From assembly GCF_000003815.2 (NCBI RefSeq), contig NC_049990.1, positions 673,395-737,394 on the forward strand: DNA of 64,000 nt, in the 5' to 3' direction. The stretch is from Branchiostoma floridae. Taxonomy: Eukaryota > Chordata > Leptocardii > Amphioxiformes > Branchiostomatidae. A program made the translations under genes and the position numbers. Under the pieces are notes generated by a model. It was not told the DNA's origin, did no database searches, and was given only the letters and a program-made list of their open reading frames with translations. Positions 11,634-60,315 of this stretch are shown here, piece by piece (the first letter of the stretch is position 1; each line of letters begins with the position of its first letter).

Positions 11634-14600
11634 ATGTGGAAAAAGCTGCGACACGTGCTGATCTTTCTTCTCGTCCTCCTCAATGAGTCCAACATGTCAG
11701 AAGCTTGGTGTGGTAGAGACTCTCTTACTTGCCGACCAGACCAACCGGGATGTTGGAACAAGCGTAATTTCACCAGCATCCCTCAGAATATTGAACATGG
11801 CGAGCTCAAATCTTTATCTTTGCAACATAACTTGATGACAAAGATTCAGCCCGATGCATTTGTTAAGCTGAGCAGCATAAGGAAGTTGGACCTGTTGTCC
11901 AACCATATAACAAATATACCGGCAGGTACATTTGCACCGCTATGCTATCTCCATTCTTTGTGCTTGTCCCGCAACAGGATAGCAATGATTCAGAATGGCA
12001 CATTTGCAGGTCTACGCCGGCTAAAAAAGTTAATCATGGCCCATAACAGGATAACAAGGATTGAATCTGGTGCGTTTGCAGAGTTACCCCAGCTCTCGGA
12101 GATCAACCTGTCATTCAATCAGATAACAACGATTGAGGCAGGTACATTTGCAGACCTACCACGTCTCTTAAAGTTATCGATGAAAAACAACAAGATAGCT
12201 AAGATCGATCCTGGTGTGTTTGCAGAGTTACCATGGCTACAAATGCTGATCCTATCCTCCAACCAGATAACAATGATTCGAACTGGCACATTTGCAGACC
12301 TACCCATCCTCATAAACTTGTATCTGGAGTCCAATCAGATAACAAAGATTCAGCCCTGTGCATTTGTAAATCTACCCCAGCTACAGGTTAAACTAGATAA
12401 CGAGCGCGAGCATATGCTGGAAGGATCGATTTGTGAAGAACGAACCATATCAACACTGTCTGTTGATATCCAAACCTCCTTCCAGTCATCTTTAGTTTCA
12501 ACGTCTTCTCTGTTTGGCAGCACAGAAATCAATGCTGGTCCAACAGCACGACCTAAAGGCTTCACATCTGCCACACAGTCCTCGTTTGGTCCTTCACAAA
12601 GTGCTAACAACAGTTACAATGGAACCGTCACCTCTCGCTATCACTGGTACTTCAAGCGCGATTTTGGTTCAACTGCAAGTTCTGCAGGCAATAAAAGCCA
12701 AGCTAGAGCAACACCACCTTCCCTCCTTGCAATTACACCAGACAAACCAGAAATCCGCAGTTCTCATGAATTATCTGCCAATTTACCCAACGCTGTTCTC
12801 ATTGCCTCAATCTGTGGTTCAATAGCTGGCATTGTCCTGATTGGCAGCATCATTCTCACTATCTGGTGCAAGAGGAGGACCAGCCATCCTCCTCTAGGAC
12901 TAAATCCCAATGTTGTTAGTACCAACACTAGCACAACGGTTTCTGTAATGACAAGTGGCCAGAATGAAAATGAAAACAAGGATCATGATCAGACAGGGCA
13001 GGGCCAGTCTCAGGCTAACGCCAGATCTTTGAAGGTTGAAAACCTGCCACAAAACGTGCTAGCTGCCTTAAAGCCAAACCCTCTGTACGCAGGTGTGGGA
13101 ACACTATCAACATCTGCCAGTGGTCATGATCACCAGTATGAAGATATAGACAACCAACACAATCAGAAAAGGCAGGGTCAGTCTAAGGCCATCACTGAAT
13201 CCAACACAAACACCACAGCTGCTGTAGTGGCCAGTGGTCATGATCACCAGTATGAAGATATAGACAAACAACACAATCATGCAACGCAGGGTCAGTCTAA
13301 GGCTATCAGTGAATCCAACAAAAACACCACAGCAGCTGTAATGACCAGTGGTCATGATCACCAGTATGAAGATATAGACAAACAACACAATCAGACAGGG
13401 AAGGCCCAGTCTCAGGCCATCACAGAATCCAACAAAAACACCACAGCTGCTGTAGTGGCCAGTGGTCATGATCACCAGTATGAAGATATAGACAAACAAC
13501 ACAATCAGACAAGGCAGGGCCAGTCTCAGGCCATCACAGAATCCAACACAAACACCACAGCTGCTGTAATGACCAGTGGTCTTGATCACCAGTATGAAGA
13601 TATAGACAAACAACACAATCAGACAAGGCAGGGCCAGTCTAAGGCCATCACAGAATCCACCAAAAACACCACAGCTAGTGTAGTGGCCAGTATTCATGAT
13701 CACCAGTATGAAGATATAGACAAACAACACAATGAGACAAGGCAGGGTCAATCTACGGCCATCACAGAATCCACCAAAAACACCACAGCTAGTGTAGTGG
13801 CCAGTGTTCATGATCACCAGTATGAAGATATAGACAAACAACACAATCAGACAAGGCAGGGCCAGTCTCAGGCCATCACTGAATCCAACACAAACACCAT
13901 AGCAACTATAGAGGCCAGCGGTCATGATCACCAGTATGAAGATATAGACAAACAACGCAATCAGACAGAGAAGAGCCAGTCTCAGGCCATCACAGAATCC
14001 AACACAAACACCACAGCTGCTGTAATGACCAGTGGTCTTGATCAACAGTATGAAGATATGGCCCCTCAACACAATCAGACAGGGCGGGGCCAGTCTCAGG
14101 CCATCAATAAAACCAACACAAACCCCAAAGCTACAGTAGTGACCAAGGGTCATAATCACCAGTATAAAAACATGGACAGCCAGACAGGGCAGGATAATCC
14201 CCAGGCCATCACTAACTCCTTTGATGCTAGAAATCTATCATATGGCTCAGGGCCGACTGCCTCACACCTTCACTCCTTGTACAACTTGAGGGCCAACTCG
14301 GGCACCACAGCTGCTATAGTAACTAGTGGTCATGACAAGACAGGGCAGGGCCAGTCTCAGGCCGTCACTAACTCCTTTGATGCTAGAAATCTATCTTATG
14401 GCACAGGGCCTACTGCCTCACAGCTTAATTCCTTGTACAACGTTGAGCGCCAGTATCAGGCCATCATTAAATCCAACTCGGGCACAGCAGCTGCTGTAGG
14501 AACCAGTGGTCATGATCAGACTGGGCAGTGCCAGTATCAGGCCGTCATTGAAACTAACACTAAGACCACAGCTACTACAGTGACCAGTAGCAATGATAGA

Positions 14601-18031: not shown

Positions 18032-18035
18032 TTAC

Positions 18036-18253
18036 TGCAGCTGAGCTTTCTTCAGATGGTGGGGATTCTGAGGCAAGGAATACGGTTGGAGAGGCCACCG
18101 GGATGTCCAGAGGACCCGTACCGACTGATGAGGTCGTGTTGGCGCGACGTTCCAGATACCAGACCGACTCCGGAAGGGATAGAAGAGAGGCTGCTGCAAC
18201 TGAGACGTGCACTGCTTCCACATGACGTCATTGAAATGGAGACTGTGGTGTAG
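18036..18253 (+). pseudogene. RTK type-B fragment (kinase end) beside the MITE
   Basis: Matches the last ~72 codons of the RTKs from the QLSFLQMVGI region to the terminal ETVV and TAG 18251-18253, without internal stops. All upstream kinase sequence is missing. An open frame from 17882 exists only because the MITE happens to read through. One change is EDPYRL for EDLYRL. The 3' flank is type B. Not a functional kinase. Confidence 0.85.
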
Positions 18254-19909: not shown

Positions 19910-20990
19910 ATGGCAGGAACTGTTCAGGTGTTGCTTGTTGTGGGTTTCTGGGTTGTTTCTGTCAACCTCCTTTGTTCTGCTTGGGCCCAGGAGTTCAGCT
20001 TTTCCGTACCAGAAAACGTCACTGTTGGGGAGACCATTTTCAGCCTGCTAGGGACCCGGGCTGGAGAAAAAGCGGAACTTCCGTGTGCCAAAATGGAGGG
20101 AGATCCGTACGGCCGCTTTAATGTGACGAAGAACTGCACTATTGTGGTCGCCAATCCCCTGGACTGGTCAGTACAGTCGGCATATCTACTGACCATCCGC
20201 AGTGGAGTCCACAACACGAGAGTTAAAGGTGGGTTTACACCTGCGTATATTTTCATGCCGCATGAGTTCCGTTTTGACATTTTTCGACATTTTGACTAAT
20301 TTCTTCAATACGCGGCCGCACGCACAAGTCGCACCTCTATCGCATCTGAATCGTCTTTAGAAAGTTTCACGTACGCAGGCAAACGAAAATATACGCACAG
20401 TTCGTCTGATAGTTTTGGACATGCACAAAACTATCATTCGTACGCAGTTTGGTGCCCAAAACGTTATGGATGCGCAATACAGTGGTCCCACGTCGGTCGA
20501 TTGCGCTATGAAGACGCTACATGTTTGCGCTTTACACGCAGTAATACGCGGAAATCGCGGTAATGCGAGTACATAGCGTTCTTACAGCGCAGACACAACG
20601 CACCATGAGCGACCGTATAACGAATGCACACATAGATCACGATTTAGTACCGTGCGTTCTGCGATCGCTTTGCGCATACTACGCGTACTAATAGCGTGAT
20701 CGACGCACACTCCAGATTTGGAATAAATACGAAGGTGCATCTGACTCCAGACAAAAAAAATCATCTCAAGATGTATATAACTTTATTGCAGGATTCAGGG
20801 GATTCTGAGGCAAGGAATACGGTTGGAGAAGCCACCGGGATATCCAGAGGACCTGTACCGACTGATGAGGTCGTGTTGGCTCGACGTTCCAGATACCAGA
20901 CCGACTCCGGAAGGGATAGAAGAGAGGCTGCTGCAAATGAGACGTGCACTGCTTCCACATGACGTCATTGAAATGGAGACTGTGGTGTAG
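19910..20990 (+). pseudogene. RTK-A2: gutted receptor tyrosine kinase pseudogene
   Basis: The start at 19910 and the first ~106 codons (signal peptide, cadherin-like region) are open and close to A1. After gagttaa at about 20227 the homology stops and about 570 bp of unrelated DNA follows. RTK homology returns near 20798 with the last ~65 codons up to TAG 20988-20990. The EGF, Ig, transmembrane and catalytic regions are all missing. The type-A 3' flank identifies it as the cassette-2 counterpart of A1 and A3. The N-terminal frame ends in the inserted DNA at 20299, so at most a short secreted fragment could be made. Confidence 0.9.
20228..20797. mobile_element. Insertion replacing the body of RTK-A2, possibly transposon-derived
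   Basis: Unrelated to RTK sequence. It begins aggtgggtttacacctgcgt, which looks like a transposon terminus, and is full of tacgc/gcgta words. I could not find a matching inverted end, so the element may be truncated. RTK sequence flanking the two sides is not contiguous in intact copies, so deletion accompanied the insertion. Confidence 0.4.
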
Positions 20991-21730: not shown

Positions 21731-22190
21731 CACACGCCATTACGGACCAGCTACCGACGGCCGCATCCTGCACAACAACAGCCTGAGCCATTACGGACCA
21801 GCTACCGACGGCCGCACCCTACACAACAACAGCCTGAGCCATCACGGACCAGCTACCGACGGCCGCACCCTACACAACAACAGCCTGAGCCATCACGGAC
21901 CAGCTACCGACGGCCGCACCCTACACAACAACAGCCTGAGCCATCACGGACCAGCTACCGACGGCCGCAACCTACACAACAACAGCCTGAGCCATCACGG
22001 ACCAGCTACCGACGGCCGCACCCTACACAACAACAGCCTGAGCCATCACGGACCAGCTACCGACGGCCGCACCCTACACAACAACAGCCTGAGCTATTAC
22101 GGACCAGCTACCGACGGCCGCACCCTACACAACAACAGCCTGAGCCATCACGGACCAGCTACCGAAGGCCGTACTCAACACAACAACAGC
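21731..22190. repeat. 51-bp minisatellite, array 2 (~9 units)
   Basis: Nine units of the 51-bp repeat, followed by the linker with cagctaaagctgctcttgtg. A further single unit lies at 22378-22412. The reading frame is open only because the unit is 17 codons long. Confidence 0.9.
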
Positions 22191-22499
22191 CTGGGGGATT
22201 CTACACGAGCACCTGACCAGAACGTGCAGCTAAAGCTGCTCTTGTGGCTTGACAGGTATGCTGCTGCCGGTGGATAAACTTTAAGGGTAAATCTGTTATG
22301 TCCACATGTTGTTATAACTTAATTAGGATTGATTTCAGCCCCGCCCTGTAGGTAAGACTAATCCCAGGTTGTTTACCACACGCCATTACGGACCAGCTAC
22401 CGACGGCCGCACTCTACAAGCGCACCATCAGCGGTGCCTGGGGCATTCTACACGAGTTCCTGCCAGCTGAGTGCCAGCTGAAGCTGTTCTCAGTGGCTT
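22191..22499. other. Linker after 51-bp array 2
   Basis: A second leader (cagccccgccctgtaggtaa), one 51-bp unit, one 37-bp-like unit (ggtgcctggggcattctaca) and gctgttctcagtggcttcaa, which precedes a donor-like aaaggtatgt. No gene. Confidence 0.6.
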
Positions 22500-26131: not shown

Positions 26132-28915
26132 ATGTGGAAAAAGCTGCGACACGTGCTGATCTTTCTTCTCATCCTCCTGAATGAGTCCAACGCGTCAGAA
26201 ACTTTCTGTGAAACCTTCTATACTTGCCAACGCTCCGAATTGGGATGTTGGAACAAGCGTGGTTTCACCAGCATCCCTCAGAATATCACGTACGGCGACT
26301 TCTTATCTTTGCAACAAAACTTCATAACAAAGATTCAGCCCGAGACATTTGTTAAGCCATTGGGACTAAGTAAGTTGGACCTGGTGTCCAACCATATAAC
26401 AGATATACCGGCAGGTACATTTGCACCGTTGTGCAATCTCCAACAGTTGTGCTTGTCCCTCAACAGGATAACAATGATTCAGAATGGCACATTTGCAGGT
26501 CTACGCCGGCTAGAAAAATTAATCATGGCCCATAACAATATAACAAGGATTGCGCGTGGTGCGTTTACAGAGTTACCCCACCTCGGCTTGATCGACCTGT
26601 CATTCAATAAGATGACAACGATTCAGGCAGGTACATTTGCAGACCCACCCCGTCTAGGCAAGTTATATTTGGGCAACAACAGGATAACTAAGATCTATCC
26701 TGGTGTGTTTGCAGAGTTACCCCGGCTTCAAATACTGATCCTATTCGCAAACCAGATAACAATGATTCAAACTAGCGCATTTGCAGAGTTGCCGGAGCTC
26801 TTTACGTTGAACCTAATCTTCAACGGGATAACAATGATTCGAACTGGCACATTTGCAGACCTTCCCAGCCTCAAAAACTTGTATCTGGAATTCAATCCGA
26901 TAACAGAGATTCAGCCCTGTGCATTTGTAAATCTGCCCGAGCTATGGAATGTTGAAGTAGACGACAGGCAGATGCTGGAAGGATCGATATGTGAAGAACG
27001 AACCATATCAACACTGTCTGTTGATATCCAAACCTCCTTCCAGTCATCTGCAGGGTCAACATCTTCTCCGTTTGGCAGCACAGAAATCAATGCTGGCCCA
27101 ACAGCACGCCCTGAAGGCCCCACATCTGCCACACAGTCCCTAACTGGTCCAATGCAAAGTGCTAACAACAGTTACAGTGGCACCGTCACCTCTCGCTATC
27201 ACTGGTACTTCAAGCACGATTCTGGTTCAACTGCAAGTTCTGCAGGCAATACAAGCCAAGATAGAGCAACACCACCTTCCCTCCTTGCAATTACCTCAGA
27301 CAAACCAGAAACCCACAGTTCTCATGAATTGTCTCCCAATTTACCCAATGCTGTTCTCATTGCCACTATATGTGGTTCAATAGCTGGCATTGTCCTGATT
27401 GGCAGCATCATTCTCATTATCTGGTGCAAGAGGAGGACCAGCCATCCTCCTCTAGGACTAAATCCCAATGTTGTTAGTACCAACACTAGCACAACGGTTT
27501 CTGTAATGACAAGTGACCAGAATGAACATGAAAACAAGGATCATGATCAGACAGGGCAGGGCCAGTCTCAGGCTAACACCAGATCTTTGAAGGTTGAAAA
27601 CCTGCCACAAAACGTGCAAGCTGCCATAAAGCCAAATCCTATGTACGCAGATGTGGGAACACCATCAACATCTGCCAGTGGTCATGATCAGACAAGGCAG
27701 GGCCAGTCTCAGTCCATCACTAAATCCAACCCAAACACCACAGCTAGTGTAGTGGCCAGTGGTCATGATCACCAGTATGAAGATATTGACAGACAACACA
27801 AACAAACAGGGCAGGCCCAGTCTCAGGCCATCACTAAATCCAACACAAACACCACAGCTGCTTTAATGATCAGGGATGATTATCACCAGTATGAAGATAT
27901 CGACAAACAACATACACAGACAAGGCAAGGCCAGTCTCAGTCCATCACTAACTTAAACACAAACACCACAGCTGCTTTGGTAACCAGCAGCCATGATCAA
28001 CAGTACGAAAATATTGCCCCCAAACACAATCAGACAGGTCAGGGTCAGTTACAGGCCATCACAGAACCCCACGCAAACAGNNNNNNNNNNNNNNNNNNNN
28101 NNNNNNNNNNNNNNNNNNNNNNNNNNNNNNNNNNNNNNNNNNNNNNNNNNNNNNNNNNNNNNNNNNNNNNNNNNNNNNNNGCCAGGGGTCATAAGCAGCA
28201 ATATGAAAATATTGGCAGCCAACACAATCAGACAGGGCAGGACAAGTCCCAGGCTATCACTTATTCCTTAGATGCTACAAATATATCTTATGGCACAGGA
28301 CCGACTGCCTCACAGCCAAATTCCTTGTACACAAACACCACAGCTGTTGTGGAAGCTAGTGGTCATGATCAGACAGGTCAGGGTCAGGGCATCACTGATT
28401 CAGTAGACGCTACAAATATATCTTATGGCACAGGACCGACTGCCTCACAGCCAAATTCCTTGTACACAAACACCACAGCTGTTGTGGAAGCTAGTGGTCA
28501 TGATCAGACAGGTCAGGGTCAGGCCATCACTGATTCAGTAGACGCTACAAATATATCTTATGGCACAGTCTCAGGCCAGTCTCAGGCCATCACTGAATCC
28601 AACCCAAACACTACAGCTGCTGTAGTGGCCAGTGGTCATGATCAGACAGGGCAGGGCCAGTCTCAGGCCATCACTGAATCCAACCCAAACACTACAGCTG
28701 CTGTAGTGGCCAGTGGTCATGATCAGACAGGGCAGGTTCAGTGTCAGGTCATCACTGACTCATCTGATGCGGGGTCGTGTGGCGTGACGGCAGGTTGTTT
28801 GGCCCAGAACCCAGAGGTCCCGGGTTCAAATCCGAAAGGCACTCTGGACGACGTCTCTCCCTGCAGTAATGTTAAAATAAGTACCTATCTACGTATCAGG
28901 CCGTCCCTCGAATAG
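26132..28915 (+). CDS. LRR3: single-exon LRR transmembrane receptor, tail switched to YENI motifs (internal gap)
   Basis: Signal peptide 1-22, N-cap, nine LRRs (one more than LRR2; the extra unit is ANQITMIQTSAF), short C-cap with SICEE, Ser/Thr stalk, transmembrane helix at about 406-431 ending CKRR, then NPMY (NPxY type). The tail has only two QYEDI units, then two YENI units (YENIAPK and YENIGSQ) on either side of the N gap, then DATNISYGTGP / NSLY units and SGHDQTGQGQ repeats. The frame is kept across the 100 N by chance, since the true gap length is unknown. The C-terminus is again partly tRNA-like (28773-28833). The ectodomain is nearly identical to LRR4. No enzymatic domain. Confidence 0.88.
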   Translation: MWKKLRHVLIFLLILLNESNASETFCETFYTCQRSELGCWNKRGFTSIPQNITYGDFLSLQQNFITKIQPETFVKPLGLSKLDLVSNHITDIPAGTFAPLCNLQQLCLSLNRITMIQNGTFAGLRRLEKLIMAHNNITRIARGAFTELPHLGLIDLSFNKMTTIQAGTFADPPRLGKLYLGNNRITKIYPGVFAELPRLQILILFANQITMIQTSAFAELPELFTLNLIFNGITMIRTGTFADLPSLKNLYLEFNPITEIQPCAFVNLPELWNVEVDDRQMLEGSICEERTISTLSVDIQTSFQSSAGSTSSPFGSTEINAGPTARPEGPTSATQSLTGPMQSANNSYSGTVTSRYHWYFKHDSGSTASSAGNTSQDRATPPSLLAITSDKPETHSSHELSPNLPNAVLIATICGSIAGIVLIGSIILIIWCKRRTSHPPLGLNPNVVSTNTSTTVSVMTSDQNEHENKDHDQTGQGQSQANTRSLKVENLPQNVQAAIKPNPMYADVGTPSTSASGHDQTRQGQSQSITKSNPNTTASVVASGHDHQYEDIDRQHKQTGQAQSQAITKSNTNTTAALMIRDDYHQYEDIDKQHTQTRQGQSQSITNLNTNTTAALVTSSHDQQYENIAPKHNQTGQGQLQAITEPHANXXXXXXXXXXXXXXXXXXXXXXXXXXXXXXXXXXARGHKQQYENIGSQHNQTGQDKSQAITYSLDATNISYGTGPTASQPNSLYTNTTAVVEASGHDQTGQGQGITDSVDATNISYGTGPTASQPNSLYTNTTAVVEASGHDQTGQGQAITDSVDATNISYGTVSGQSQAITESNPNTTAAVVASGHDQTGQGQSQAITESNPNTTAAVVASGHDQTGQVQCQVITDSSDAGSCGVTAGCLAQNPEVPGSNPKGTLDDVSPCSNVKISTYLRIRPSLE
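28081..28180. other. Assembly gap (100 N) in the LRR3 tail
   Basis: LRR4 shows what probably belongs here: it reads straight from the ITEPNAN codons into RATAVARGHKQQ (47815-47850), only about nine codons. Confidence 0.95.
28773..28833 (+). other. tRNA-like sequence within the coding end of LRR3
   Basis: A-box-like TGGCGTGACGG from 28780 and B box GGTTCAAATCC at 28823-28833, at the same 43-bp spacing as in LRR2. Confidence 0.65.
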
Positions 28916-32422: not shown

Positions 32423-32426
32423 TTAC

Positions 32427-32644
32427 TGCAGCTGAGCTTTCTTCAGATGGTGGGGATTCTGAGGCAAGGAATACGGTTGGAGAAGCCGCCGGGATGTCCA
32501 GAAAAGCTGTACCGACTGATGAGGTCGTGTTGGCGCGACGTTCCAGATACCAGACCGACTCCAGAAGGGATAGAAGAGAGGCTGCTGCAACTGAGACGTG
32601 CACTGCTTCCACATGACGTCATTGAAAAGGAGACTGTGGTGTAG
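32427..32644 (+). pseudogene. RTK type-B fragment beside MITE copy 2
   Basis: Last ~72 codons of the RTK, ending EKETVV and TAG 32642-32644. Differences from B3 include PEKLYRL for PEDLYRL. It lies 1.7 kb before the intact B3, with the standard RTK spacer between, so it is the 5' member of what was a three-RTK row. Confidence 0.85.
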
Positions 32645-34342: not shown

Positions 34343-37153
34343 ATGGCAGGGAATGTGCAAGAGTTACTTGTTGTGGGTTTCTGGGTAGTTTCTGTCAACC
34401 TTCTTTGTTCTGCTGGGGCCCAGGAGTTCAGCGTTTCCGTACCAGAAAACGTCGATGTTGGGGAGACCATTTTCAGCCTACCAGAAAAAGCGGAACTTCC
34501 GTGTGCCAAAATGGAGGGAGATCCGTACGGCCGATTTAATGTGACGAAGAACTGCACTATTGTGGTCGCCAACCCGCTGGACTGGTCAGTACAGTCGGCA
34601 TATCTCCTGACAATCCGCAGTGGAGTCCACAACACGAGAGTTAAGGTAGAGTTGAGTGACGTTGAGGGCTATCCTCCTGTGTATAACGAGACGTGTGAAA
34701 CTCCGGTCAACCCTGACGGACAGACAGGAGATTTGCTATACAGTTTAACTACATCAGGGGAATTTGTGACGACAACCGGTGATGTTTTCTTTAGCAAAGG
34801 AATACATATTACAAAAGTCCCCCACGATACTGACTATAAACGGGACTCTTGGATGTTTTACACAGACAACAGTGATTGCAACATTCGCATAGCGGTGAAG
34901 ACTGATCATATTTATGATTTAACGGTCTTACAAGATGTATGGGAAAACGACATTCAACAAGTTACATGCACTGCGGGTTACAAATCATCAAAAATAGTGA
35001 TGGACCTGTTTAGTCTTAAATGGGGTGAAAACACTAGTATTGAGCATTTAAGGAGGTATGTTCCTGAACACGTCATAAAAGCAAGATATCTTAACTTCAT
35101 CGTTGTCATTTTTTTGACGGTTCCTACAACAGAAGCAATGCTATACAACTGTGAAATCCCACAATTTCGCACCCCGGTCGGATCAACAGTGCATGACATC
35201 ATCAGATCATTTGCAAATATTGAATATCTGGACATGCGAATAACACCAGTGGGCTGCCCAGTTGGAAAATACGGCTTCCTCTGCCACAAAACCTGCATCT
35301 GTAAGAATGGCGCCCGCTGCCACGGGTTTAACGGTGCCTGCAAATGTCCGCCCGGCTGGAAAGGTGTGGCCTGTGACATTCCCAAACAGGACGTCTCCAT
35401 CACGACGACACCTGGCGACCTTCGCGACATCTACATTTCCGCAAATATCATGTTTCATTGCAAGGCACACCATGTCGACGTTAGGTCCATGTCGGTTACA
35501 TTTCCAAATGCGACAAAGAACGTTCACTTCCATGTGAACGAGATTTACTTTGTAGTTCCGAACATACAACCAACCAACAGCGGACCCTACACCTGCCAGG
35601 TCCGAGACACCCGGGGAAACACACTCAACACCACGTTTGTGCTCAATGTTACCAACTGTGCTCCAGACACAAAAGGTGCCCGGTGTGATGAAGTGTGTGG
35701 TTGCCTACAAGGTGCCAGCTGTGACCGCTGGGCTGGTTGTGTCTGTCCGCCGGGATGGACAGGAACCAGGTGCCAGACAAAATGTTCCCTCGGCACGTAC
35801 GGTAAAAACTGTGCAAGGAACTGTAGCTGCCTAAATGGGGCGAGCTGTAGCCCTAGCGACGGTAAGTGTGACTGCACCGACGGGTGGTATGGAAAGGATT
35901 GTAGCAAACCGTGTCCAAACGGTCGGTTCGGTTTGCTTTGTCAGCAGGTTTGTGCCTGTAAGAACAATGCCACATGTAACAACGTGGACGGCAGCTGCGC
36001 ATGTGTGACGCCATGGACGGGACGGAACTGTGACCAATTGCCAAGCACAGATCAACCGCTGCTCGAAAGTCTGGTCTCACTGGGATCCTTAATCGTACTT
36101 GTTGCCATAGTGATGACAATACTCTACAAAAAGGGCATTCTGGCTTGCTCCGCACCTGACACAGGCGAGGAGGACAAGATACTTTTCGAGCTGAGGAGAA
36201 TGGAGCAGGATCTAGCACAGAGCCTACAGCCGGGCTGGCTGGGACGTTGGGAGAAGAAGATCAAACATCTTACTCCTGGTCCTCTGATAGGAGAAGGAAT
36301 GTTTGGACTAGTCAGAAAAGGAAAACTGCACACAACTGAGGGAGAGCTCGCCGTTGCTGCCAAGACAGTTCGCGTCGAGGACTCACAGTCCTACCGAGAC
36401 TTCTACAGAGAAGCAGCCATTTTGGTAGCTGTGCACCAACAACGGGATGGCGATTGCCGTGAGTCCAACATTGTTCGACTTGTGGGGCTCATCACCAAGT
36501 CTGCGGAGAAGTACATTCTTCTGGAATATGCCTCCAAAGGAGATCTCTTGGGTTTGCTACGACGATTTGTGAACATCAACGAGAAAGACCTACTTGGAAA
36601 CATTCTTGGCTACGCAGTCCACATAGCACGAGCCCTACAAGAGCTGGGTCGCTTGAGAATCGCCCATCGTGACGTGGCCGCTCGCAACGTCCTCATCACT
36701 GCCGATGACGTGGCCAAGTTGGCTGACTTTGGACTGGCCAGAGATGTCTACGCCACTACTCAGTATGTCCGATGCAACCGTCCAGGCGTTGATGACGAAC
36801 TCCTTCCGCTGAAGTGGATGGCGCTAGAGTCCATCGAGACCGACGAGTACACCTGTCAGAGTGACGTCTGGTCCTTCGGCGTGCTGCTGTGGGAGATCGC
36901 CACGCTGGGGAAAGATCCGTGCTACGATGGCAGGATGCAGCTGAGCTTTCTTCAGATGGTGGGGATTCTGAGGCAAGGAATACGCTTGGAGAGGCCACCG
37001 GGATGTCCAGAGGACCTGTACCGACTGATGAGGTCGTGTTGGCTCGACGTTCCAGATACCAGACCGACTCCAGAAGGGATAGAAGAGAGGCTGCTGCAAC
37101 TGAGACGTGCACTGCTCCCACATGACGTCATTGCAATGGAGACTGTGGTGTAG
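34343..37153 (+). CDS. RTK-B3: intact single-exon receptor tyrosine kinase (cadherin-like/EGF/Ig/EGF3/kinase)
   Basis: 936 residues. I chose ATG 34343 because the signal peptide (MAGNVQELLVVGFWVVSVNL) starts there and A3 has no usable start further upstream. Residues 28-110 look like a divergent cadherin repeat (VPEN, VANPLDW, YLLTI, DVEGYPPVY). Residues 111-304 are not recognised. Then EGF-like (about 305-347), Ig-like (349-436, SGPYTCQV), three EGF-like of CxCxNGAxC type (437-565), and transmembrane (574-596). The kinase has GEGMFG 650-655, Lys674, HRDVAARN from 775, DFG from 795, and activation-loop Tyr803 and Tyr808. All catalytic residues are present. The juxtamembrane region and the ~15-residue C-tail contain no tyrosine; the end is ETVV, a class I PDZ ligand. 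EGF-Ig-EGF order recalls Tie receptors, but no FN3 is seen. AATAAA at 37444. Confidence 0.92.
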   Translation: MAGNVQELLVVGFWVVSVNLLCSAGAQEFSVSVPENVDVGETIFSLPEKAELPCAKMEGDPYGRFNVTKNCTIVVANPLDWSVQSAYLLTIRSGVHNTRVKVELSDVEGYPPVYNETCETPVNPDGQTGDLLYSLTTSGEFVTTTGDVFFSKGIHITKVPHDTDYKRDSWMFYTDNSDCNIRIAVKTDHIYDLTVLQDVWENDIQQVTCTAGYKSSKIVMDLFSLKWGENTSIEHLRRYVPEHVIKARYLNFIVVIFLTVPTTEAMLYNCEIPQFRTPVGSTVHDIIRSFANIEYLDMRITPVGCPVGKYGFLCHKTCICKNGARCHGFNGACKCPPGWKGVACDIPKQDVSITTTPGDLRDIYISANIMFHCKAHHVDVRSMSVTFPNATKNVHFHVNEIYFVVPNIQPTNSGPYTCQVRDTRGNTLNTTFVLNVTNCAPDTKGARCDEVCGCLQGASCDRWAGCVCPPGWTGTRCQTKCSLGTYGKNCARNCSCLNGASCSPSDGKCDCTDGWYGKDCSKPCPNGRFGLLCQQVCACKNNATCNNVDGSCACVTPWTGRNCDQLPSTDQPLLESLVSLGSLIVLVAIVMTILYKKGILACSAPDTGEEDKILFELRRMEQDLAQSLQPGWLGRWEKKIKHLTPGPLIGEGMFGLVRKGKLHTTEGELAVAAKTVRVEDSQSYRDFYREAAILVAVHQQRDGDCRESNIVRLVGLITKSAEKYILLEYASKGDLLGLLRRFVNINEKDLLGNILGYAVHIARALQELGRLRIAHRDVAARNVLITADDVAKLADFGLARDVYATTQYVRCNRPGVDDELLPLKWMALESIETDEYTCQSDVWSFGVLLWEIATLGKDPCYDGRMQLSFLQMVGILRQGIRLERPPGCPEDLYRLMRSCWLDVPDTRPTPEGIEERLLQLRRALLPHDVIAMETVV

Positions 37154-38875: not shown

Positions 38876-41671
38876 ATGGCAGGGAATGTGCAAGAGTTAC
38901 TTGTTGTGGGTTTCTGGGTAGTTTCTGTCAACCTTCTTTGTTCTGCTCGGGCCCAGGAGTTCAGCGTTTCCGTACCAGAAAACGTCGATGTTGGGGAGAC
39001 CATTTTCAGCCTACCAGAAAAAGCGGAACTTCCGTGTGCCAAAATGGAGGGAGATCCGTACGGCCGCTTTAATGTGACGAAGAACTGCACTATTGTGGTC
39101 GCCAACCCGCTGGACTGGTCAGTACAGTCGGCATATCTGCTGACAATCCGCAGTGGAGTCCACAACACGAGAGTTAAGATAGAGTTGAGTGACGTTGAGG
39201 GCTATCCTCCTGTGTATAACGAGACGTGTGAAACTCCGGTCAACCCTAACGGACAGACGGGATATTTGCTATACAGTTTAACTACATCAGGGGAATTTGT
39301 GACGACAGCCGGAGATGTTTTCTTTAGCAAAGGAATACATATTACAAAAGTCCCCCACGATACTGACTATAAACGGGACTCTTGGATGTTTTACACCGAC
39401 AACAGTGATTGCAACATTCGCATAGCGGTGAAGACTGATCATATTTATGATTTAACGGTCTTACAAGATGTATGGGAAAACGACATTCAACAAGTTACAT
39501 GCACTGCGGGTTACAAATCATCAAAAATAGTGATGGACCTGTTTAGTCTTAAATGGGGTGAAAACACTAGTATTGAGCATTTAAGGAGGTATGTTCCTGA
39601 ACACGTCATAAAAGCAAGATATCTTAACTTCATCGTTGTCATTTTTTTGACGGTTCCTACAACAGAAGGAATGCTATACAACTGTGAAATCCCACAATTT
39701 CGCACCCCGGTCGGATCAACAGTGCATGACATCATCAGATCATTTGCAAATATTGAATATCTGGACATGCGAATAACACCAGTGGGCTGCCCAGTTGGAA
39801 AATACGGCTTCCTCTGCCACAAAACCTGCATCTGTAAGAACGGCGCCCGCTGCCACGGGTTTAACGGTGCCTGCAAATGTCCGCCCGGCTGGAAAGGTGT
39901 GGCCTGTGACATTCCCAAACAGGACGTCTCCATCACGACGACACCTAGCGACCTTCGCGATATCTACATTTCCGCAAATATCATATTTCATTGCAAGGCA
40001 CACCATGTCGACATTAGGTCCATGTCGGTTACATTTCCAAATGCGACAAAGAACGTTCACTTCGATGTGAACGAGATTTACTTTGTGGTTCCGAACATAC
40101 AACCAACCAACAGCGGACCGTACACCTGCCAGGTCCGAGACACCCGGGGAAACACACTCAACACCACGTTTGTGCTCAATGTTACCAACTGTGCTCCAGA
40201 CACAAAAGGTGCCCGGTGTGATGAAGTGTGTGGTTGCCTACAAGGTGCCAGCTGTGACCGCTGGGCTGGTTGTGTCTGTCCGCCGGGATGGACAGGAACC
40301 AGGTGTCAGACAAAATGTCCCCATGGCATGTACGGTAAAAACTGTGCAAGGAACTGTAGCTGCCTAAATGGGGCGAGCTGTAGCCCTAGCGACGGTAAGT
40401 GTGACTGCACCGACGGGTGGTATGGAAAGGATTGTAGCAAACCGTGTCCAAACGGTCGGTTCGGTTTGCTTTGTCAGCAGGTTTGTGCCTGTAAGAACAA
40501 TGCTACATGTAACAACGTGGACGGCAGCTGCGCATGTGTGACGCCATGGACGGGACGGAACTGTGACCAATTGCCAAGCACAGATCAACCGCTGCTCGAA
40601 AGTCTGGTCTCACTGGGATGCTTAATCGTACTTGTTGCCATAGTGATGGGCACACTCTACAAAAAGGGCATTCTGGCTTGCTCCGCACCTGACACAGGTG
40701 AGGAGGACAAGATACTTTTCGAACTGAGGAGAATGGAGCAGGATCTAGCACAGAGCCTACAGCCGGGCTGGCTGGGACGTTGGGAGAAGAAGATCAAACA
40801 TCTTACTCCTGGTCCTCTGATAGGAGAAGGAATGTTTGGACTGCACACAACTGAGGGAGAGCTCGCCGTTGCCGCCAAGACAGTTCGCGTCGAGGACTCA
40901 CAGTCCTACCGAGACTTCTACAGAGAAGCAGCCATTTTGGTAGCTGTGCACCAACAACGGGATGGCGATTGCCGTGAGTCCAGCATTGTTCGACTTGTGG
41001 GGCTCATCACCAAGTCTGCGGATAAGTACATTCTTCTGGAATATGCCTCCAAAGGAGATCTGTTGGGTTTGCTACGACGATTTGGGAACATCAACGAGAA
41101 AGACCAACTTGGAAACATTCTTGGCTACGCAGTCCACATAGCACGAGCCCTACAAGAGCTGGATCGCTTGAGAATCGCCCATCGTGACGTGGCCGCTCGC
41201 AACGTCCTCATCACTGCCGATGACGTGGCCAAGCTGGCTGACTTTGGACTGGCCAGAGATGTCTACGCCGCTAATCAGTATATCCGAGCCAACCGTCCAG
41301 GCGTTGACGAACTCCTTCCGCTGAAGTGGATGGCGCTGGAGTCCATCGAAACCGGCGAGTACACGTGTCAGAGTGACGTCTGGTCCTTCGGCGTGCTGCT
41401 GTGGGAGATCGCCACGCTTGGGAAAGATCCGTGCTACGATGGCAGGATGCAGCTGAGCTTTCTTCAGATGGTAGGGATTCTGAGGCAAGGCATACGGTTG
41501 GAGAGGCCGCCGGGATGTCCAGAGGACCTGTACCGACTGATGAGGTCGTGTTGGCTCGACGTTCCAGATACCAGACCGACTCCGGAAGGGATATCGATAG
41601 AAGAGAGGCTGCTGCAACTGAGACGTGGACTGCTTCCACATGACGTCATTGAAATGGAGACTGCGGTGTAA
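38876..41671 (+). CDS. RTK-A3: open receptor tyrosine kinase with a deletion in the glycine-rich loop
   Basis: 931 residues, same domain order as B3 and nearly identical through the ectodomain. After GEGMFGL it lacks six residues (VRKGKL in B3): 18 bp are missing after 40842, including the conserved valine after the glycine loop and most of strand beta-2. The VAAK lysine, HRDVAARN and DFG remain. ATP binding is therefore doubtful and it may be a pseudokinase. Two extra codons (atatcgata region) give EGISIEER near the C-terminus. The protein ends ETAV, still a class I PDZ-ligand type. The 3' flank is type A with AATAAA near 42176. The start is the ATG of the signal peptide. Confidence 0.9.
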   Translation: MAGNVQELLVVGFWVVSVNLLCSARAQEFSVSVPENVDVGETIFSLPEKAELPCAKMEGDPYGRFNVTKNCTIVVANPLDWSVQSAYLLTIRSGVHNTRVKIELSDVEGYPPVYNETCETPVNPNGQTGYLLYSLTTSGEFVTTAGDVFFSKGIHITKVPHDTDYKRDSWMFYTDNSDCNIRIAVKTDHIYDLTVLQDVWENDIQQVTCTAGYKSSKIVMDLFSLKWGENTSIEHLRRYVPEHVIKARYLNFIVVIFLTVPTTEGMLYNCEIPQFRTPVGSTVHDIIRSFANIEYLDMRITPVGCPVGKYGFLCHKTCICKNGARCHGFNGACKCPPGWKGVACDIPKQDVSITTTPSDLRDIYISANIIFHCKAHHVDIRSMSVTFPNATKNVHFDVNEIYFVVPNIQPTNSGPYTCQVRDTRGNTLNTTFVLNVTNCAPDTKGARCDEVCGCLQGASCDRWAGCVCPPGWTGTRCQTKCPHGMYGKNCARNCSCLNGASCSPSDGKCDCTDGWYGKDCSKPCPNGRFGLLCQQVCACKNNATCNNVDGSCACVTPWTGRNCDQLPSTDQPLLESLVSLGCLIVLVAIVMGTLYKKGILACSAPDTGEEDKILFELRRMEQDLAQSLQPGWLGRWEKKIKHLTPGPLIGEGMFGLHTTEGELAVAAKTVRVEDSQSYRDFYREAAILVAVHQQRDGDCRESSIVRLVGLITKSADKYILLEYASKGDLLGLLRRFGNINEKDQLGNILGYAVHIARALQELDRLRIAHRDVAARNVLITADDVAKLADFGLARDVYAANQYIRANRPGVDELLPLKWMALESIETGEYTCQSDVWSFGVLLWEIATLGKDPCYDGRMQLSFLQMVGILRQGIRLERPPGCPEDLYRLMRSCWLDVPDTRPTPEGISIEERLLQLRRGLLPHDVIEMETAV

Positions 41672-44194: not shown

Positions 44195-44470
44195 GTCATT
44201 ACGGACCAGCTACCGACGGCCGCACCCTACACAACAACAGCCTGGGTCATTACGGACCAGCTACCGACGGCCGCACCCTGCACAACAACAGCCTGAGCCA
44301 TCACGGACCAGCTACCGACGGTCGCACCCTGCACAACAACAGCCTGAGCCATTACGGACCAGCTACCGACGGCCGCACCCTACACAACAACAGCCTGAGC
44401 CATCACGGACCAGCTACCGACGGCCGCACCCTGCACACCAGCACCCGGTGCCGAGTGCATTCTACACGAG
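44195..44470. repeat. 51-bp minisatellite, array 5, ending in one 37-bp unit
   Basis: About 4.7 units and the same terminal single 37-bp-like unit as array 3. Confidence 0.88.
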
Positions 44471-46161: not shown

Positions 46162-48925
46162 ATGTGGAAAAAGCTGCGACACGTGCTGATCTTTCTTCTC
46201 ATCCTCCTGAATGAGTCCAACGCGTCAGAAACTTTCTGTGAAACCTTCTATACTTGCCAACGCTCCGAATTGGGATGTTGGAACAAGCGTGGTTTCACCA
46301 GCATCCCTCAGAATATCACGTACGGCGACTTCTTATCTTTGCAACAAAACTTCATAACAAAGATTCAGCCCGAGACATTTGTTAAGCCATTGGGACTAAG
46401 TAAGTTGGACCTGGTGTCCAACCATATAACAGATATACCGGCAGGTACATTTGCACCGTTGTGCAATCTCCAACAGTTGTGCTTGTCCCTCAACAGGATA
46501 ACAATGATTCAGAATGGCACATTTGCAGGTCTACGCCGGCTAGAAAAATTAATCATGGCCCATAACAATATAACAAGGATTGCGCGTGGTGCGTTTACAG
46601 AGTTACCCCACCTCGGCTTGATCGACCTGTCATTCAATAAGATAACAACGATTCAGGCAGGTACATTTGCAGACCCACCCCGTCTAGGCAAGTTATATTT
46701 GGGCAACAACAGGATAACTAAGATCTATCCTGGTGTGTTTGCAGAGTTACCCCGGCTTCAAATACTGATCCTATTCGCAAACCAGATAACAATGATTCAA
46801 ACTAGCGCATTTGCAGAGTTGCCGGAGCTCTTTACGTTGAACCTAATCTTCAACGGGATAACAATGATTCGAACTGGCACATTTGCAGACCTTCCCAGCC
46901 TCAAAAACTTGTATCTGGAATACAATCCGATAACAGAGATTCAGCCCTGTGCATTTGTAAATCTGCCCGAGCTATGGAATGTTGAAGTAGACGACAGGCA
47001 GATGCTGGAAGGATCGATATGTGAAGAACGAACCATATCAACACTGTCTGTTGATATCCAAACCTCCTTCCAGTCATCTCCAGTGTCAACATCTTCTCCG
47101 TTTGGTAGCACAGAAATCAATGCTGGTCCAACAGCGCGCCCTGAAGCCTCCACATCTGCCACACAGCCCATAATTGGTCCAATGCAAAGTGCTAACAACA
47201 GTTACAATGGCACCGTCACCTCTCGCTATAACTGGTACTTCAAGCGCGATTCTGGGTCAACTGCAAGTTCTGCAGGCAATACAAGCCAAGATAGAGCAAT
47301 AACACCTTCCCTCCTTGCAATTACCTCAGACAAACCAGAAATCCACAGTTCTCATGAATTGTCTCCCAATTTACCCAATGCTGTTCTCATTGCCACTATA
47401 TGTGGTTCAATAGCTGGCATTGTCCTGATTGGCAGCATCATTCTCATTATCTGGTGCAAGAGGAGGACCAGCCATCCTCCTCTAGGACTAAATCCCAATG
47501 TTGTTAGTACCAACACTAGCACAACGGTTTCTGTAATGACAAGTGACCAGAATGAACATGAAAACAAGGATCATGATCAGACAGGGCAGGGCCAGTCTCA
47601 GGCTAACACCAGATCTTTGAAGGTTGAAAACCTGCCACAAAACGTGCTAGCTGCCATAAAGCCAAATCCTATGCACGCAGATGTGGGAACACCATCAACA
47701 TCTGCCAGTGGTCATGATCAGACAAGGCAGGGCCAGTCTCAACAGTACGAAAATATTGCCCCCAAACACAATCAGACAGGTCAGGGCCAGTTACAGGCCA
47801 TCACAGAACCCAACGCAAACAGTAGAGCTACTGCAGTGGCCAGGGGTCATAAGCAGCAATATGAAAATATTGGCAGCCAACACAATCAGACAGGGCAGGA
47901 CAAGTCCCAGGCTATCACTTATTCCTTAGATGCTACAAATATGTCTTATGGCACAGGACCGACAGCCTCCCAGCCAAATTCCTTGTACACAAACACCACA
48001 GCTGTCGTGGAAGCTAGTGGTCATGATCAGACAGGTCAGGGTCAGGCCATCACTAATTCAGCAGACGCTACAAATCTATCTTATGGCACAGGACCGACTG
48101 CCTCACAGCCAAATTCCTTGTACACAAACACCACAGCTGTTGTGGAAGCTAGTGGTCATGATCAGACAGGTCAGGCTCAGGCCATCACTAATTCAGCAGA
48201 CGCTACAAATCTATCTTATGGCACAGGACCGACTGTCTCANNNNNNNNNNNNNNNNNNNNNNNNNNNNNNNNNNNNNNNNNNNNNNNNNNNNNNNNNNNN
48301 NNNNNNNNNNNNNNNNNNNNNNNNNNNNNNNNNNNNNNNNAGTGGTCATGATCAGACAGGTCAGGGTCAGGCCATCACTAATTCAGTAGACGCTACAAAT
48401 CTATCTTATGGCACAGTCTCAGGCCAGTCTCAGGCCATCACTGAATCCAACCCAAACACTACAGCTGCTGTAGTGACCAGCGGTTATGATCAGACAGGGC
48501 AGGGCCAGTCTCAGGTCATCGCTGAATCCAAACCAAACACCACAGCTGCTGTAGTGACCAGTGGTCATGATCAGACAGGGCAGGGCCAGTCTCAGGCCAT
48601 CACTGAATCCAAACCAAACACCACAGCTGATGTAGTGACCAGTGGTCATGATCAGACAGGGCAGGGCCAGTCTCAGGCCATCACTGAATCCAACCCAAAC
48701 ACTAAAGCTGCTGTAGTGACCAGCGGTCATGATCAGACAGGGCAGGGCCAGTCTCAGGCCATCACTGACTCATCTGATGCGGGGTCGTGTGGCGTAGCGT
48801 CAGGTTGTTTGGCCCAGAACCCAGAGGTCCCGGGTTCAAATCCACAAGGCACTCTGGACGACGTCTCTCCATGCAATAATGTTAAAATAAGTACCTATCT
48901 ACGTATCAGGCCGTCCCTCGAATAG
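46162..48925 (+). CDS. LRR4: single-exon LRR transmembrane receptor, shortest docking region (internal gap)
   Basis: The signal peptide, N-cap and nine LRRs are almost identical to LRR3 (two substitutions noted: ITTI for MTTI and EYNP for EFNP). The stalk differs more. The transmembrane helix matches LRR3. The NPxY of the sisters reads NPMH here (atgcac), so its tyrosine is lost. There are no YEDI units; the tail goes directly to YENIAPK and YENIGSQ, then DATNLSYGTGP / NSLY units. The frame before the N gap (48241-48340) and after it differ, but the gap length is arbitrary, so this is not evidence of a frameshift. After the gap the frame continues through GHDQTGQGQSQ repeats and the tRNA-like C-terminus to TAG 48923-48925. 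Confidence 0.87.
48241..48340. other. Assembly gap (100 N) in the LRR4 tail
   Basis: Lies in near-identical DATNLSYGTGP repeats, where assemblers typically collapse. Confidence 0.95.
48783..48843 (+). other. tRNA-like sequence within the coding end of LRR4
   Basis: A-box-like TGGCGTAGCGT from 48790 (closer to the tRNA consensus than in the sisters) and B box GGTTCAAATCC at 48833-48843. Confidence 0.65.
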
Positions 48926-52618: not shown

Positions 52619-55444
52619 ATGGCAGGAAATGTGCAGGGATTACTTGTTGCATGTTTCTGGGTTGTTTCTGTCAACCTTCTTTCTTCTGCTCGGGCCCAGG
52701 AGTTCAGCGTTTCCGTACCAGAAAACGTCGCTGTTAGGGAGACCATTTTCAGCCTACCAGGGACCCGTGCTGGAGAAAAAGCGGAACTTCCGTGTACCAA
52801 ACTGGAGGGAGATCCGTACGGCCGCTTTAATGTGACGAAGAACTGCACTATTGTGGTCGCCAATCCCCTGGACTGGTCAGTACAGTCGGCATATCTGCTG
52901 ACAATCCGCAGTGGAGTCCACAACACAAGCGTTAAGGTAGAGTTGAGTTACGTTGAGGGCTATCCTCCTGTTTATAACGAGACGTGTGAAACTCCGGTCA
53001 ACCCTAACGGACAGACGGGAGATTTACTATACAGTTTAACTACATCAGGAGAATTTGTGACGACGACCGGAGATGTTTTCTTTAGCAAAGGAATACGTAT
53101 TACAAAAGTCCCCCACGATACTGACTGGAAAAAGGATTCTTGGATGTTTTACACCGACAATAGTGACTGCAACATTCGCATAGCGGTTAAGACTGATCAT
53201 ATTTATGATTTAACAGTCTTACAAGACATATGGGACAACGACATTAAACAGGTGACATGCACTGCGGGTTACAAATCATCAAAAATAGTGATGGACCTGT
53301 TTAGTCTTAAATGGGGTGAAAACACTAGTATTGAGCATTTAAGAAAGTATGTTCCTGAACACGTCATAAAAGCAAGATATCTCAACTTCATTGTTGTCAT
53401 TTCCTGGACGGTTCCTACAACAGAAGCAATGCTATACAACTGTGAAATCCCACAATTTCGCACCCCGGTCGGATCAACAGTGCATGACATCATAAGATCA
53501 TTTGCGAGTATTGAATATCTGGACATGCGAATAAACCCAGTGGGCTGCCCAGTTGGAAAATACGGCTTCCTCTGCCACAAAACCTGCATCTGTAAGAACG
53601 GCGCCCGCTGCCACGGGTTTAACGGTGCCTGCAAATGTCCGCCCGGCTGGAAAGGTGTGGCCTGTGACATTCCCAAACAGGACGTCTCCATCACGACGAC
53701 ACCTAGCGACCTTCGCGATATCTACATTTCCGCAAATATCATATTTCATTGCAAGGCACACCATGTCGACGTTAGGTCCATGTCGGTTACATTTCCAAAT
53801 GCGACAAAGAACGTTCACTTCGATGTGAACGAGATTTACTTTGTGGTTCCGAACATACAACCAACCAACAGCGGACGCTACACCTGCCAGGTCCGAGACA
53901 CCCGGGGAAACACACTCAACACCACGTTTGTGCTCAATGTTACCAGCTGTGCTCCAGACACAAAAGGTGCCCGGTGTGATGAAGTGTGTGGTTGCCTACA
54001 AGGTGCCAGCTGTGACCGCTGGGCTGGTTGTGTCTGTCCGCCGGGATGGACAGGAACCAGGTGTCAGAGAAAATGTCCCCATGGCACGTACGGTCAAGAC
54101 TGTGCGAGGAAATGTACCTGTCAAAATTGGGCGACCTGTGACCCTAGCGACGGTAAGTGTGACTGCATCGACGGGTGGTATGGAAAGGATTGTAGCAAAC
54201 CGTGTCCAAACGGTCGGTTCGGTTTGCTTTGTCAGCAGTTTTGTGCCTGTAAGAACAGTGCTGTGTGTAGTAACGTGGACGGCAGCTGCGCATGTGTGAC
54301 GCCATGGACAGGACCGGACTGTGACCAATTGCAGACAAGCACAAATGAACCGCTGCTCGGAAGTTTAGTTCCACTGTGGTCCTTAGTCTTACTTGTTGCC
54401 ATAGTGATGGCCATACTCTACAGAGCAGGCATTCTGGCTTGCTCCGCACCTGACACAAGTGAGGAAGACAAGATACTTTTCGAGCTGAGGAGAATGGAGC
54501 AGGATCTAGCACAGAGCCTACAGCCGGGCTGGCTGGGACGTTGGGAAAAGAATATCAAACATCTTACTCCTGGTCCACTGATAGGTTTAGGAATGTTTGG
54601 ACTAGTCAGAAAAGGAAAACTGCGCACACCTGAGGGAGAGCTCGCCGTTGCCGCCAAGACAGCTCGCGTCGAGGACTCACAGTCCTACCGAGACTTCTAC
54701 AGAGAAGCAGCCATTTTGGTGGCTGTGCACCAAGAACGAGATGGCGATTGTCGTGAGTCCAACATTGTTCGCCTTGTGGGGCTCATCACCAAGTCTGCGG
54801 AGAAGTACATTCTTCTGGAATATGCCTCCAAAGGAGATCTCTTGAATGTTCTATACGGAATAAGAATCACTAATGAGGAAGGCCTACTTGGAAACCCTCT
54901 TCGTTACGCAATCCACATAGCTCGAGCTCTACAAGAGCTGGAACGCTTGAGAATCGCCCATCGTGACGTGGCCGCTCGCAACGTCCTCATCACTGCCGAT
55001 GACGTGGCCAAGTTGGCTGACTTTGGACTGGCCAGAGATGTCTACGCCGCTACTCAGTATGTCCGATGCAACCGTCCTGGCGTTGACGAACTCCTTCCGC
55101 TGAAGTGGATGGCGCTGGAGTCCATCGAGACCGGCGAGTACACCTGTCAGAGTGACGTCTGGTCCTTCGGCGTGCTGCTGTGGGAGATCGCCACGCTGGG
55201 GAAAGATCCGTGCTACGATGGCAGGATGCAGCTGAGCTTTCTTCAGATGGTGGGGATTCTGAGGCAAGGAATACGGTTGGAGAGGCCGCCGGGATGTCCA
55301 GAGGACCTGTACCGACTGATGAGGTCGTGTTGGCGCGACGTTCCAGATACCAGACCGACTCCGGAAGAGATAGAAGAGAGGCTGCTGCAACTGAGACGTG
55401 CACTGCTTCCACATGACGTCATAGAAATGGAGACTGTGGTGTAG
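52619..55444 (+). CDS. RTK4: intact single-exon receptor tyrosine kinase, most diverged copy
   Basis: 941 residues. ATG 52619 begins the signal peptide (MAGNVQGLLVACFWVVSVNL). Same order: cadherin-like, unknown region, EGF-like, Ig-like (SGRYTCQV), three EGF-like, transmembrane, kinase. The glycine loop is GLGMFG, keeping the three glycines; VAAK, HRDVAARN and DFG are intact. The region after SKGDLL differs from the sisters (NVLYGIRITNEEG). The C-terminus is ETVV with no tail tyrosine. It is the last member of the array, and its 3' flank is interrupted at 55482 by a mariner-like element. Likely an active kinase. Confidence 0.92.
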   Translation: MAGNVQGLLVACFWVVSVNLLSSARAQEFSVSVPENVAVRETIFSLPGTRAGEKAELPCTKLEGDPYGRFNVTKNCTIVVANPLDWSVQSAYLLTIRSGVHNTSVKVELSYVEGYPPVYNETCETPVNPNGQTGDLLYSLTTSGEFVTTTGDVFFSKGIRITKVPHDTDWKKDSWMFYTDNSDCNIRIAVKTDHIYDLTVLQDIWDNDIKQVTCTAGYKSSKIVMDLFSLKWGENTSIEHLRKYVPEHVIKARYLNFIVVISWTVPTTEAMLYNCEIPQFRTPVGSTVHDIIRSFASIEYLDMRINPVGCPVGKYGFLCHKTCICKNGARCHGFNGACKCPPGWKGVACDIPKQDVSITTTPSDLRDIYISANIIFHCKAHHVDVRSMSVTFPNATKNVHFDVNEIYFVVPNIQPTNSGRYTCQVRDTRGNTLNTTFVLNVTSCAPDTKGARCDEVCGCLQGASCDRWAGCVCPPGWTGTRCQRKCPHGTYGQDCARKCTCQNWATCDPSDGKCDCIDGWYGKDCSKPCPNGRFGLLCQQFCACKNSAVCSNVDGSCACVTPWTGPDCDQLQTSTNEPLLGSLVPLWSLVLLVAIVMAILYRAGILACSAPDTSEEDKILFELRRMEQDLAQSLQPGWLGRWEKNIKHLTPGPLIGLGMFGLVRKGKLRTPEGELAVAAKTARVEDSQSYRDFYREAAILVAVHQERDGDCRESNIVRLVGLITKSAEKYILLEYASKGDLLNVLYGIRITNEEGLLGNPLRYAIHIARALQELERLRIAHRDVAARNVLITADDVAKLADFGLARDVYAATQYVRCNRPGVDELLPLKWMALESIETGEYTCQSDVWSFGVLLWEIATLGKDPCYDGRMQLSFLQMVGILRQGIRLERPPGCPEDLYRLMRSCWRDVPDTRPTPEEIEERLLQLRRALLPHDVIEMETVV

Positions 55445-60280: not shown

Positions 60281-60315
<35 letters not shown>

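Follow-up and report, generated by a model that had tools for sequence, protein, structure and literature searches.

The interleaving of leucine-rich repeat (LRR) receptors and receptor tyrosine kinases (RTKs) at one locus of the Branchiostoma floridae genome is best explained by the meeting of two lancelet receptor families, each separately expanded across the genome and interleaved here by tandem duplication. In this interpretation, to which we assign a probability of roughly 0.6, the tails of the LRR receptors would probably be trans-phosphorylated, with Src-family kinases as the likeliest enzymes; the neighbouring RTK could take part but would not be their dedicated kinase. The analysis covered a stretch of 64,000 nucleotides (C12:673395-737394, the whole of which is here called the window), and searches were extended to the genome of 513 Mb in 431 contigs. 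The first family consists of RTKs that have no introns, an EGF/Ig ectodomain resembling that of Tie2, a conserved kinase, almost no docking tyrosines in the juxtamembrane segment or tail, and usually a PDZ-ligand C-terminus. Their signalling would probably run via activation-loop phosphotyrosines, scaffolds organised by PDZ interactions and the phosphorylation of other proteins. The second family consists of type I LRR receptors in which a 114-bp minisatellite multiplies the putative tail docking motifs YEDI, YENI and YEDM, accompanied by an NPxY. The anatomy, the genomic distribution, the PDZ pattern and the selection estimates are observations, and the signalling steps are inferred throughout. 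The loci of the window are the following, in window coordinates.

2..1723, forward strand: LRR0 tail, the C-terminal portion of an LRR gene that extends across the window start
4033..4278, forward strand: isolated RTK C-terminal fragment (tblastn)
5995..8857, forward strand: RTK1, a pseudogene or allele in which a CACT-repeat insertion at about 6636-6675 shifts the frame
11634..14990, forward strand: LRR1, intact single-exon LRR receptor of 1118 aa
13137..14174, forward strand: LRR1 tail tyrosine-motif array with a 114-bp period
18035..18253, forward strand: isolated RTK C-terminal fragment, the end of a 153-aa open reading frame
19910..20987, forward strand: RTK2 pseudogene, with an N-terminal piece at 19910-20299 and a C-terminal piece at 20784-20987
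26132..28915, forward strand: LRR2, single-exon LRR receptor with a tyrosine-motif tail and a 100-N gap at 28081-28180
32426..32644, forward strand: isolated RTK C-terminal fragment, the end of a 153-aa open reading frame
34343..37153, forward strand: RTK3, intact single-exon RTK with a Tie2-like EGF/Ig ectodomain and tyrosine-free juxtamembrane segment and C-tail
37139..37150, forward strand: C-terminal ETVV of RTK3, a class-I PDZ-ligand pattern
38876..41671, forward strand: RTK4, tandem copy of RTK3 with an open frame but no VRKGKL after its glycine loop, ending in ETAV
46162..48925, forward strand: LRR3, LRR receptor with two YENI read, a 100-N gap at 48241-48340 in the tail and a frame change across the gap
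52619..55444, forward strand: RTK5, intact single-exon RTK with tyrosine-free juxtamembrane segment and C-tail and an ETVV end at 55430-55441

The order on the forward strand is thus LRR0 tail, RTK1, LRR1, RTK2, LRR2, RTK3, RTK4, LRR3 and RTK5, together with the three isolated RTK C-terminal fragments on the same strand. The LRR0 gene begins outside the window, at C12:671923, and its extracellular part is interrupted by an in-frame TGA. The isolated fragments sit upstream of RTK loci, and the two 153-aa open reading frames that end in them are closely similar. The spacers are themselves repetitive: positions 10062-11383 hold a 37-bp minisatellite of about 35 copies, and 51-bp arrays are found at 9544-9818, 21736-22193, 24171-24411, 42325-42570 and 44197-44437. 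These spacer repeats may be promoters of unequal exchange. At 58225-61648 the window also contains gene pieces resembling a short-chain dehydrogenase, with 153-bp and 302-bp tandem duplications; TGANSGIG and DPGPVRTD, read there by eye, are presumably short-chain dehydrogenase motifs.

The window is part of a larger array, arranged in two blocks, of 10 LRR loci and 18 RTK loci, or 19 if the RTK2 pseudogene is counted. The first block (C12:602-729 kb) lies nearly entirely on the forward strand, with one RTK on the reverse; the second (C12:898-976 kb) lies nearly entirely on the reverse strand, with one RTK on the forward. This array was read in 20 stretches, 200 kb around the window; the inter-block region at 755-885 kb lay outside this reading, and none of the matches listed falls within it. 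The alternation of LRR and RTK genes reported in a preliminary description of this DNA is therefore real and larger than the window. All 10 array LRRs lie less than 9 kb from a kinase match. No two LRRs are neighbours, an outcome with a probability of about 0.016 under random order (6 LRRs among 17 genes; 4 among 11 same-strand genes). The array is thus somewhat more ordered than random, which counts against our main interpretation.

RTK1, RTK3 and RTK5, the three genes scanned, match the Pfam kinase profile PF07714 (E 3e-65, 4e-62 and 2e-62, respectively). HRDVA[A/T]RN is present in all 17 readable array RTKs, each with one hydrophobic transmembrane segment, and these genes thus encode receptor tyrosine kinases. 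The complete kinase attributed to them by the preliminary description stands for RTK3 and RTK5, the only intact-looking loci, but not for the remainder: two of the five RTK loci of the window are broken (RTK1 by its frameshift, RTK2 as a truncated pseudogene), and RTK4 is without the six residues VRKGKL. The CACT insertion in RTK1 was considered as a short intron and rejected, as by eye no suitable AG precedes the point where the frame resumes.

RTKs normally carry docking tyrosines of their own. In RTK1, RTK3, RTK4 and RTK5 the cytoplasmic tyrosines (10-11 each) all lie within the kinase domain; the C-tail of 16-18 residues is tyrosine-free, as is the juxtamembrane segment save for a membrane-edge tyrosine (LYKTG-type), in agreement with what had been described earlier for both segments. 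Among the 17 readable array copies, 16 have a tyrosine-free C-tail and 16 a tyrosine-free juxtamembrane segment. A feature missed earlier is a class-I PDZ-ligand end, mostly ETVV, in all 17 of these copies and in 16 of 26 RTKs sampled elsewhere in the genome. These genes resemble Tie2/TEK in part. RTK3 has one membrane helix, as Tie2 does, and its ectodomain region matches the Tie2 ectodomain (E 5e-22), but the N-terminal region differs, the C-terminus is a PDZ-ligand end, and the kinase scores mostly with FGFR and RET among the 60 solved chains shown, with one EGFR-labelled entry at the top and one ABL1. Tie2 carries tail tyrosines, which RTK3 lacks. The RTK N-terminal region gives sub-threshold cadherin-like matches in two relatives and none in RTK3.

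LRR1, LRR2 and LRR3 are LRR proteins without introns, with LRR_8 found by Pfam in LRR1 and LRR2 and LRR3 recognised by tblastn to LRR1. Each has one strong hydrophobic segment at about residues 389-411, followed by a long tail. LRR1 shows a hydrophobic start (by eye), LRR repeats, CKRR after the membrane segment and a tail of 703 residues. LRR1, LRR2, RTK3, RTK4 and RTK5 each form one open frame without introns, that of LRR2 running through its 100-N gap. The LRR domain, single membrane helix and long enzyme-free tail of the preliminary description are borne out by these searches and by hydrophobicity. The LRR1 tail holds eight YEDI, one YEDM and one YKNM within a repeat of 114 bp (38 residues), as well as the NPxY that had been described, in the form NPLY. 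The count of up to ten tyrosine motifs applies to LRR1 but not to the readable tails of LRR2 (two YEDI and two YENI) and LRR3 (two YENI), both interrupted by a 100-N assembly gap. With an LRR ectodomain, one transmembrane segment and SH2-type tail tyrosines, these proteins have the general form of a BbLcLRR-type immunoreceptor. Neither LRR1 (YLRLRQSLE) nor LRR2 (YLRIRPSLE) ends in a PDZ-ligand pattern. Open frames of 402 aa (window 11-1219) and 375 aa (13107-14234) run antisense to the 114-bp repeats on the reverse strand; they most likely arise because the repeat period is a multiple of three.

Because the LRR tail has no enzyme, its phosphorylation would occur in trans, and Src-family kinases are the most likely agents. 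Src-family SH2 domains favour pYEEI-like sites, and pYEDI resembles this optimum; pYxN suggests Grb2 and YxxM suggests PI3K.

The distribution of the two families across the genome speaks against gene pairing as the source of the alternation. A genome-wide PF07714 profile search gave 141 matches (the best 134 of 1265 candidates were scored), of which 80 lie in open frames of at least 850 residues, two of them with an internal stop (by-eye count). Outside the array, among the best candidates of both families, a listed LRR lies no more than 20 kb away from 1 of 109 kinase loci and no more than 50 kb away from 3. At C10:15.158-15.171 Mb four RTKs follow one another at 4.4-kb spacing, with no room for an LRR gene. 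Twenty-six RTKs outside the array were read, comprising six of eight loci from the profile search (L001 and L004 were excluded for too little frame around the kinase motif) and 20 picked by hand. The C-tail is tyrosine-free in 22 of the 26, including two members of a tandem cluster whose close spacing leaves no place for an LRR gene, and the juxtamembrane segment in 20. The C-tail exceptions are L002 and L003 (C16:16.6 Mb), which have tyrosines in both parts, and L038 and L039. A tyrosine-free kinase tail is thus not specific to RTKs beside LRRs, and therefore is not an adaptation to an LRR neighbour. Eight of the same 26 (L040-L047, on C7, C8, C15 and C18) read HGDVAARN (seven) or HCDVAARN (one) in place of HRDVAARN and are thus non-RD; elsewhere, the non-RD state is associated with immune receptor kinases of both plants and animals.

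LRR relatives were sought with the ectodomain and transmembrane segment of LRR2, yielding 190 matches (the best 86 of 1968 candidates were scored). The matches listed define 84 LRR loci at 34-100% identity, 10 in the array and 74 outside it. Again among the best candidates of both families, a listed kinase lies within 20 kb of one of the 74 outside loci (on C15, at 4.6 kb), within 50 kb of two and within 100 kb of three. The DNA pattern for QYE[D/N][I/M] has 275 matches genome-wide (59 for a reversed-pattern control); the first 100 of these (C1-C9) form 16 groups of at least two motifs, 10 of them with at least one interval of 102-117 bp, and none of the 16 groups has a kinase from the best-candidate list within 100 kb. 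The preliminary description had named LRR genes routinely lacking RTK neighbours as an observation that would speak against its proposal, and among these best candidates that is largely what the genome holds: the partners are not restricted to each other. Lists of best candidates may have missed some neighbours, which also counts against our main interpretation.

Tails or tail regions were read at 10 of the 74 outside loci. The C15 LRR beside an RTK showed no tail in frame. The other nine come from loci where the list places no kinase closer than 20 kb; five carry Y[E/Q][D/N][I/M], two YMSL, one an NPxY-type motif only, and one H or N in place of tyrosine. Such tail motifs are also present in relatives that share 39-74% identity with LRR2 over the LRR part. 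Both families are intronless where read and complementary in anatomy genome-wide. One of the 16 motif groups, at C5:4094307-4096908, has 17 QYE[D/N][I/M] motifs mostly 114 bp apart, exceeding any LRR tail of the window, and no kinase of the best-candidate list lies within 3.3 Mb of it. At L054 (C8:25.56 Mb), the relative with H or N just mentioned, the motifs appear as HENI, HEDI and NENI and the open frame stops early, possibly a decay of the docking array. Another relative, from C8:1690100 onward, lies within a nominal open frame of 18,396 aa. The idea that this frame forms one giant tail was rejected: the final match to the YMSL pattern lies at C8:1692630, and the sequence was read to 1692500; an assembly gap behind it is our guess.

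The duplication history of the array is mixed. RTK3 and RTK4 are a direct duplication of the RTK only (4.78 kb, 95.5%), and LRR2 and LRR3 have in common a 3.8-kb block (98.8%). Mantel comparisons of LRR divergence with that of the adjacent RTK cytoplasmic part gave no tracking (r -0.15 downstream, 0.10 upstream; nine pairs each). With the RTK ectodomain the values were r 0.27 (p 0.06) downstream and -0.08 upstream (nine pairs each), the upstream set carrying added noise because the sequence preceding the kinase at 601742 looked non-homologous. A mixture of single-gene and block duplication fits better than strict cassettes, and gene conversion probably contributed. The claim that LRR and RTK had been duplicated jointly as a functional cassette is weakened by the RTK-only copy and by the lack of a clear Mantel signal, but a displaced LRR-RTK pair at C15:4.106 and 4.111 Mb suggests that two such genes once moved or duplicated together.

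Selection differs among the parts of these receptors. Mean dN/dS is 0.29 for the RTK cytoplasmic part (12 genes), 0.55 for the RTK ectodomain (11), 0.95 for the LRR ectodomain with its transmembrane segment (9) and 0.56 for the LRR tail (9), the last with an alignment uncertain because of the repeats. An LRR ectodomain near 1 against so constrained an RTK cytoplasmic part fits a fast-changing recognition layer coupled to a conserved core for signalling, in the manner of immune receptors. Within the tail repeat, 55 of 56 units retain the motif tyrosine when motif columns help to select the units, and 55 of 61 do when the other columns alone select them; pN/pS is 0.05 for QY and 0.37 for YEDI under the first selection, 0.50 for YEDI under the second, and 0.88 for the rest of the repeat. 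The tyrosine is among the most conserved columns of the repeat but not uniquely so, the Q-rich columns being its equal. This conservation is consistent with use of the motif, with repeat homogenisation as a confounder. That the motifs are nothing other than a passive minisatellite with no docking role is very improbable: the near-neutral remainder of the repeat, the equally conserved Q-rich columns and the one relative with H or N at motif positions would agree with it, but the retained tyrosine, the low pN/pS of QY and YEDI and the recurrence of the motifs in relatives do not.

The preliminary description had proposed that the RTK phosphorylates the tail of the neighbouring LRR in trans, the pair being maintained as a two-part receptor. 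Trans-phosphorylation itself remains plausible given the enzyme-free tail, but a dedicated partnership with the adjacent gene, kept as a functional cassette, is unlikely. Such a partnership would account for the same-strand alternation in two blocks, the proximity of every array LRR to a kinase match, the placing of kinases without docking tyrosines beside kinase-less docking tails, the displaced pair on C15 and the weak downstream tracking of LRR by RTK ectodomain divergence. Against it, LRRs with the same tails and tyrosine-free RTKs each occur without the other in the best-candidate lists, the RTK was duplicated by itself in RTK3/RTK4, the kinase-side and upstream divergence comparisons lack tracking, and the five RTK loci of the window include two that are broken and a third with a damaged N-lobe. 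A cytosolic kinase, BbLck, also offers a precedent that weakens the case for a dedicated neighbour. A looser arrangement, in which any tyrosine-free RTK can phosphorylate any LRR tail once the two are brought together, possibly by PDZ scaffolds and with no gene-by-gene pairing, is rather doubtful. Under it, dozens of docking-site-free, PDZ-tethered RTKs would supply catalysis and dozens of LRRs with fast-diverging ectodomains and expandable phosphotyrosine arrays would supply recognition and docking, the array being a place where the two pools are still interleaved. The size, intronless structure and complementarity of both families and the conserved PDZ-ligand pattern of the RTKs would agree with such pooling, as would the complex of the mammalian LRR membrane protein Slitrk5, which has C-terminal tyrosines, with the RTK TrkB (PMC4977320). 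The C-termini of LRR1 and LRR2 argue against it, as they are not PDZ ligands and a shared PDZ scaffold is thus not indicated on the LRR side. Returning to our main interpretation, LRR tails may be among the substrates of the RTK family, with the neighbour favoured by adjacency alone.

Known systems are similar in part. The ErbB2-ErbB3 heterodimer also divides catalysis and a docking tail between two partners, both drawn from one RTK family; in the lancelet case the docking tail would belong to an LRR protein. TrkB has docking tyrosines of its own and, to our knowledge, the Slitrk5 and TrkB genes are not interleaved and there is no motif minisatellite. The alternation of LRR and RTK genes was not found in the titles and abstract openings of the literature searched, which covers few subscription papers. 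D'Aniello et al. in 2008 reportedly treated the lancelet tyrosine kinase expansion and may already describe that of the RTKs.

The closest precedent is BbLcLRR of Branchiostoma belcheri, like the window LRRs a lancelet single-pass LRR receptor with cytoplasmic tyrosines, the trans-phosphorylation of which has been demonstrated: in the available part of that report, the cytosolic Src-family kinase BbLck phosphorylates its tail tyrosines in transfected cells, and the phosphorylated protein binds SHIP1 and, to a lesser extent, SHP1/2 (PMC8211107). Compared by description only, BbLcLRR differs from the window LRRs in having 699 aa, a WSC domain and three isolated ITIM-like sites (DDYATV, HDYSEV and HDYDDP), and no 38-residue repeat array is described in that part of the report (PMC8211107). 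The Src-family step would extend to the present LRR subfamily by analogy, and BbLcLRR, with its WSC domain and other motifs, may lie outside that subfamily; this too counts against our main interpretation. In the pangenome of two lancelet species, the section available reports protein tyrosine kinase activity as enriched among dispensable genes in both (PMC12373286), which is consistent with turnover in copy number, although the array genes are not named in that section.

The negative outcome of the genome-wide comparison matters, as the proximity and complementarity of the genes, taken by themselves, would have pointed to a cassette for which the remainder of the genome offers no support. How RTKs with scarcely any docking tyrosines and a frequent PDZ-ligand end signal is a question raised by this large intronless set in a chordate. 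In the LRR family, SH2-type docking sites are multiplied by a minisatellite, and docking valency may therefore change through repeat expansion.
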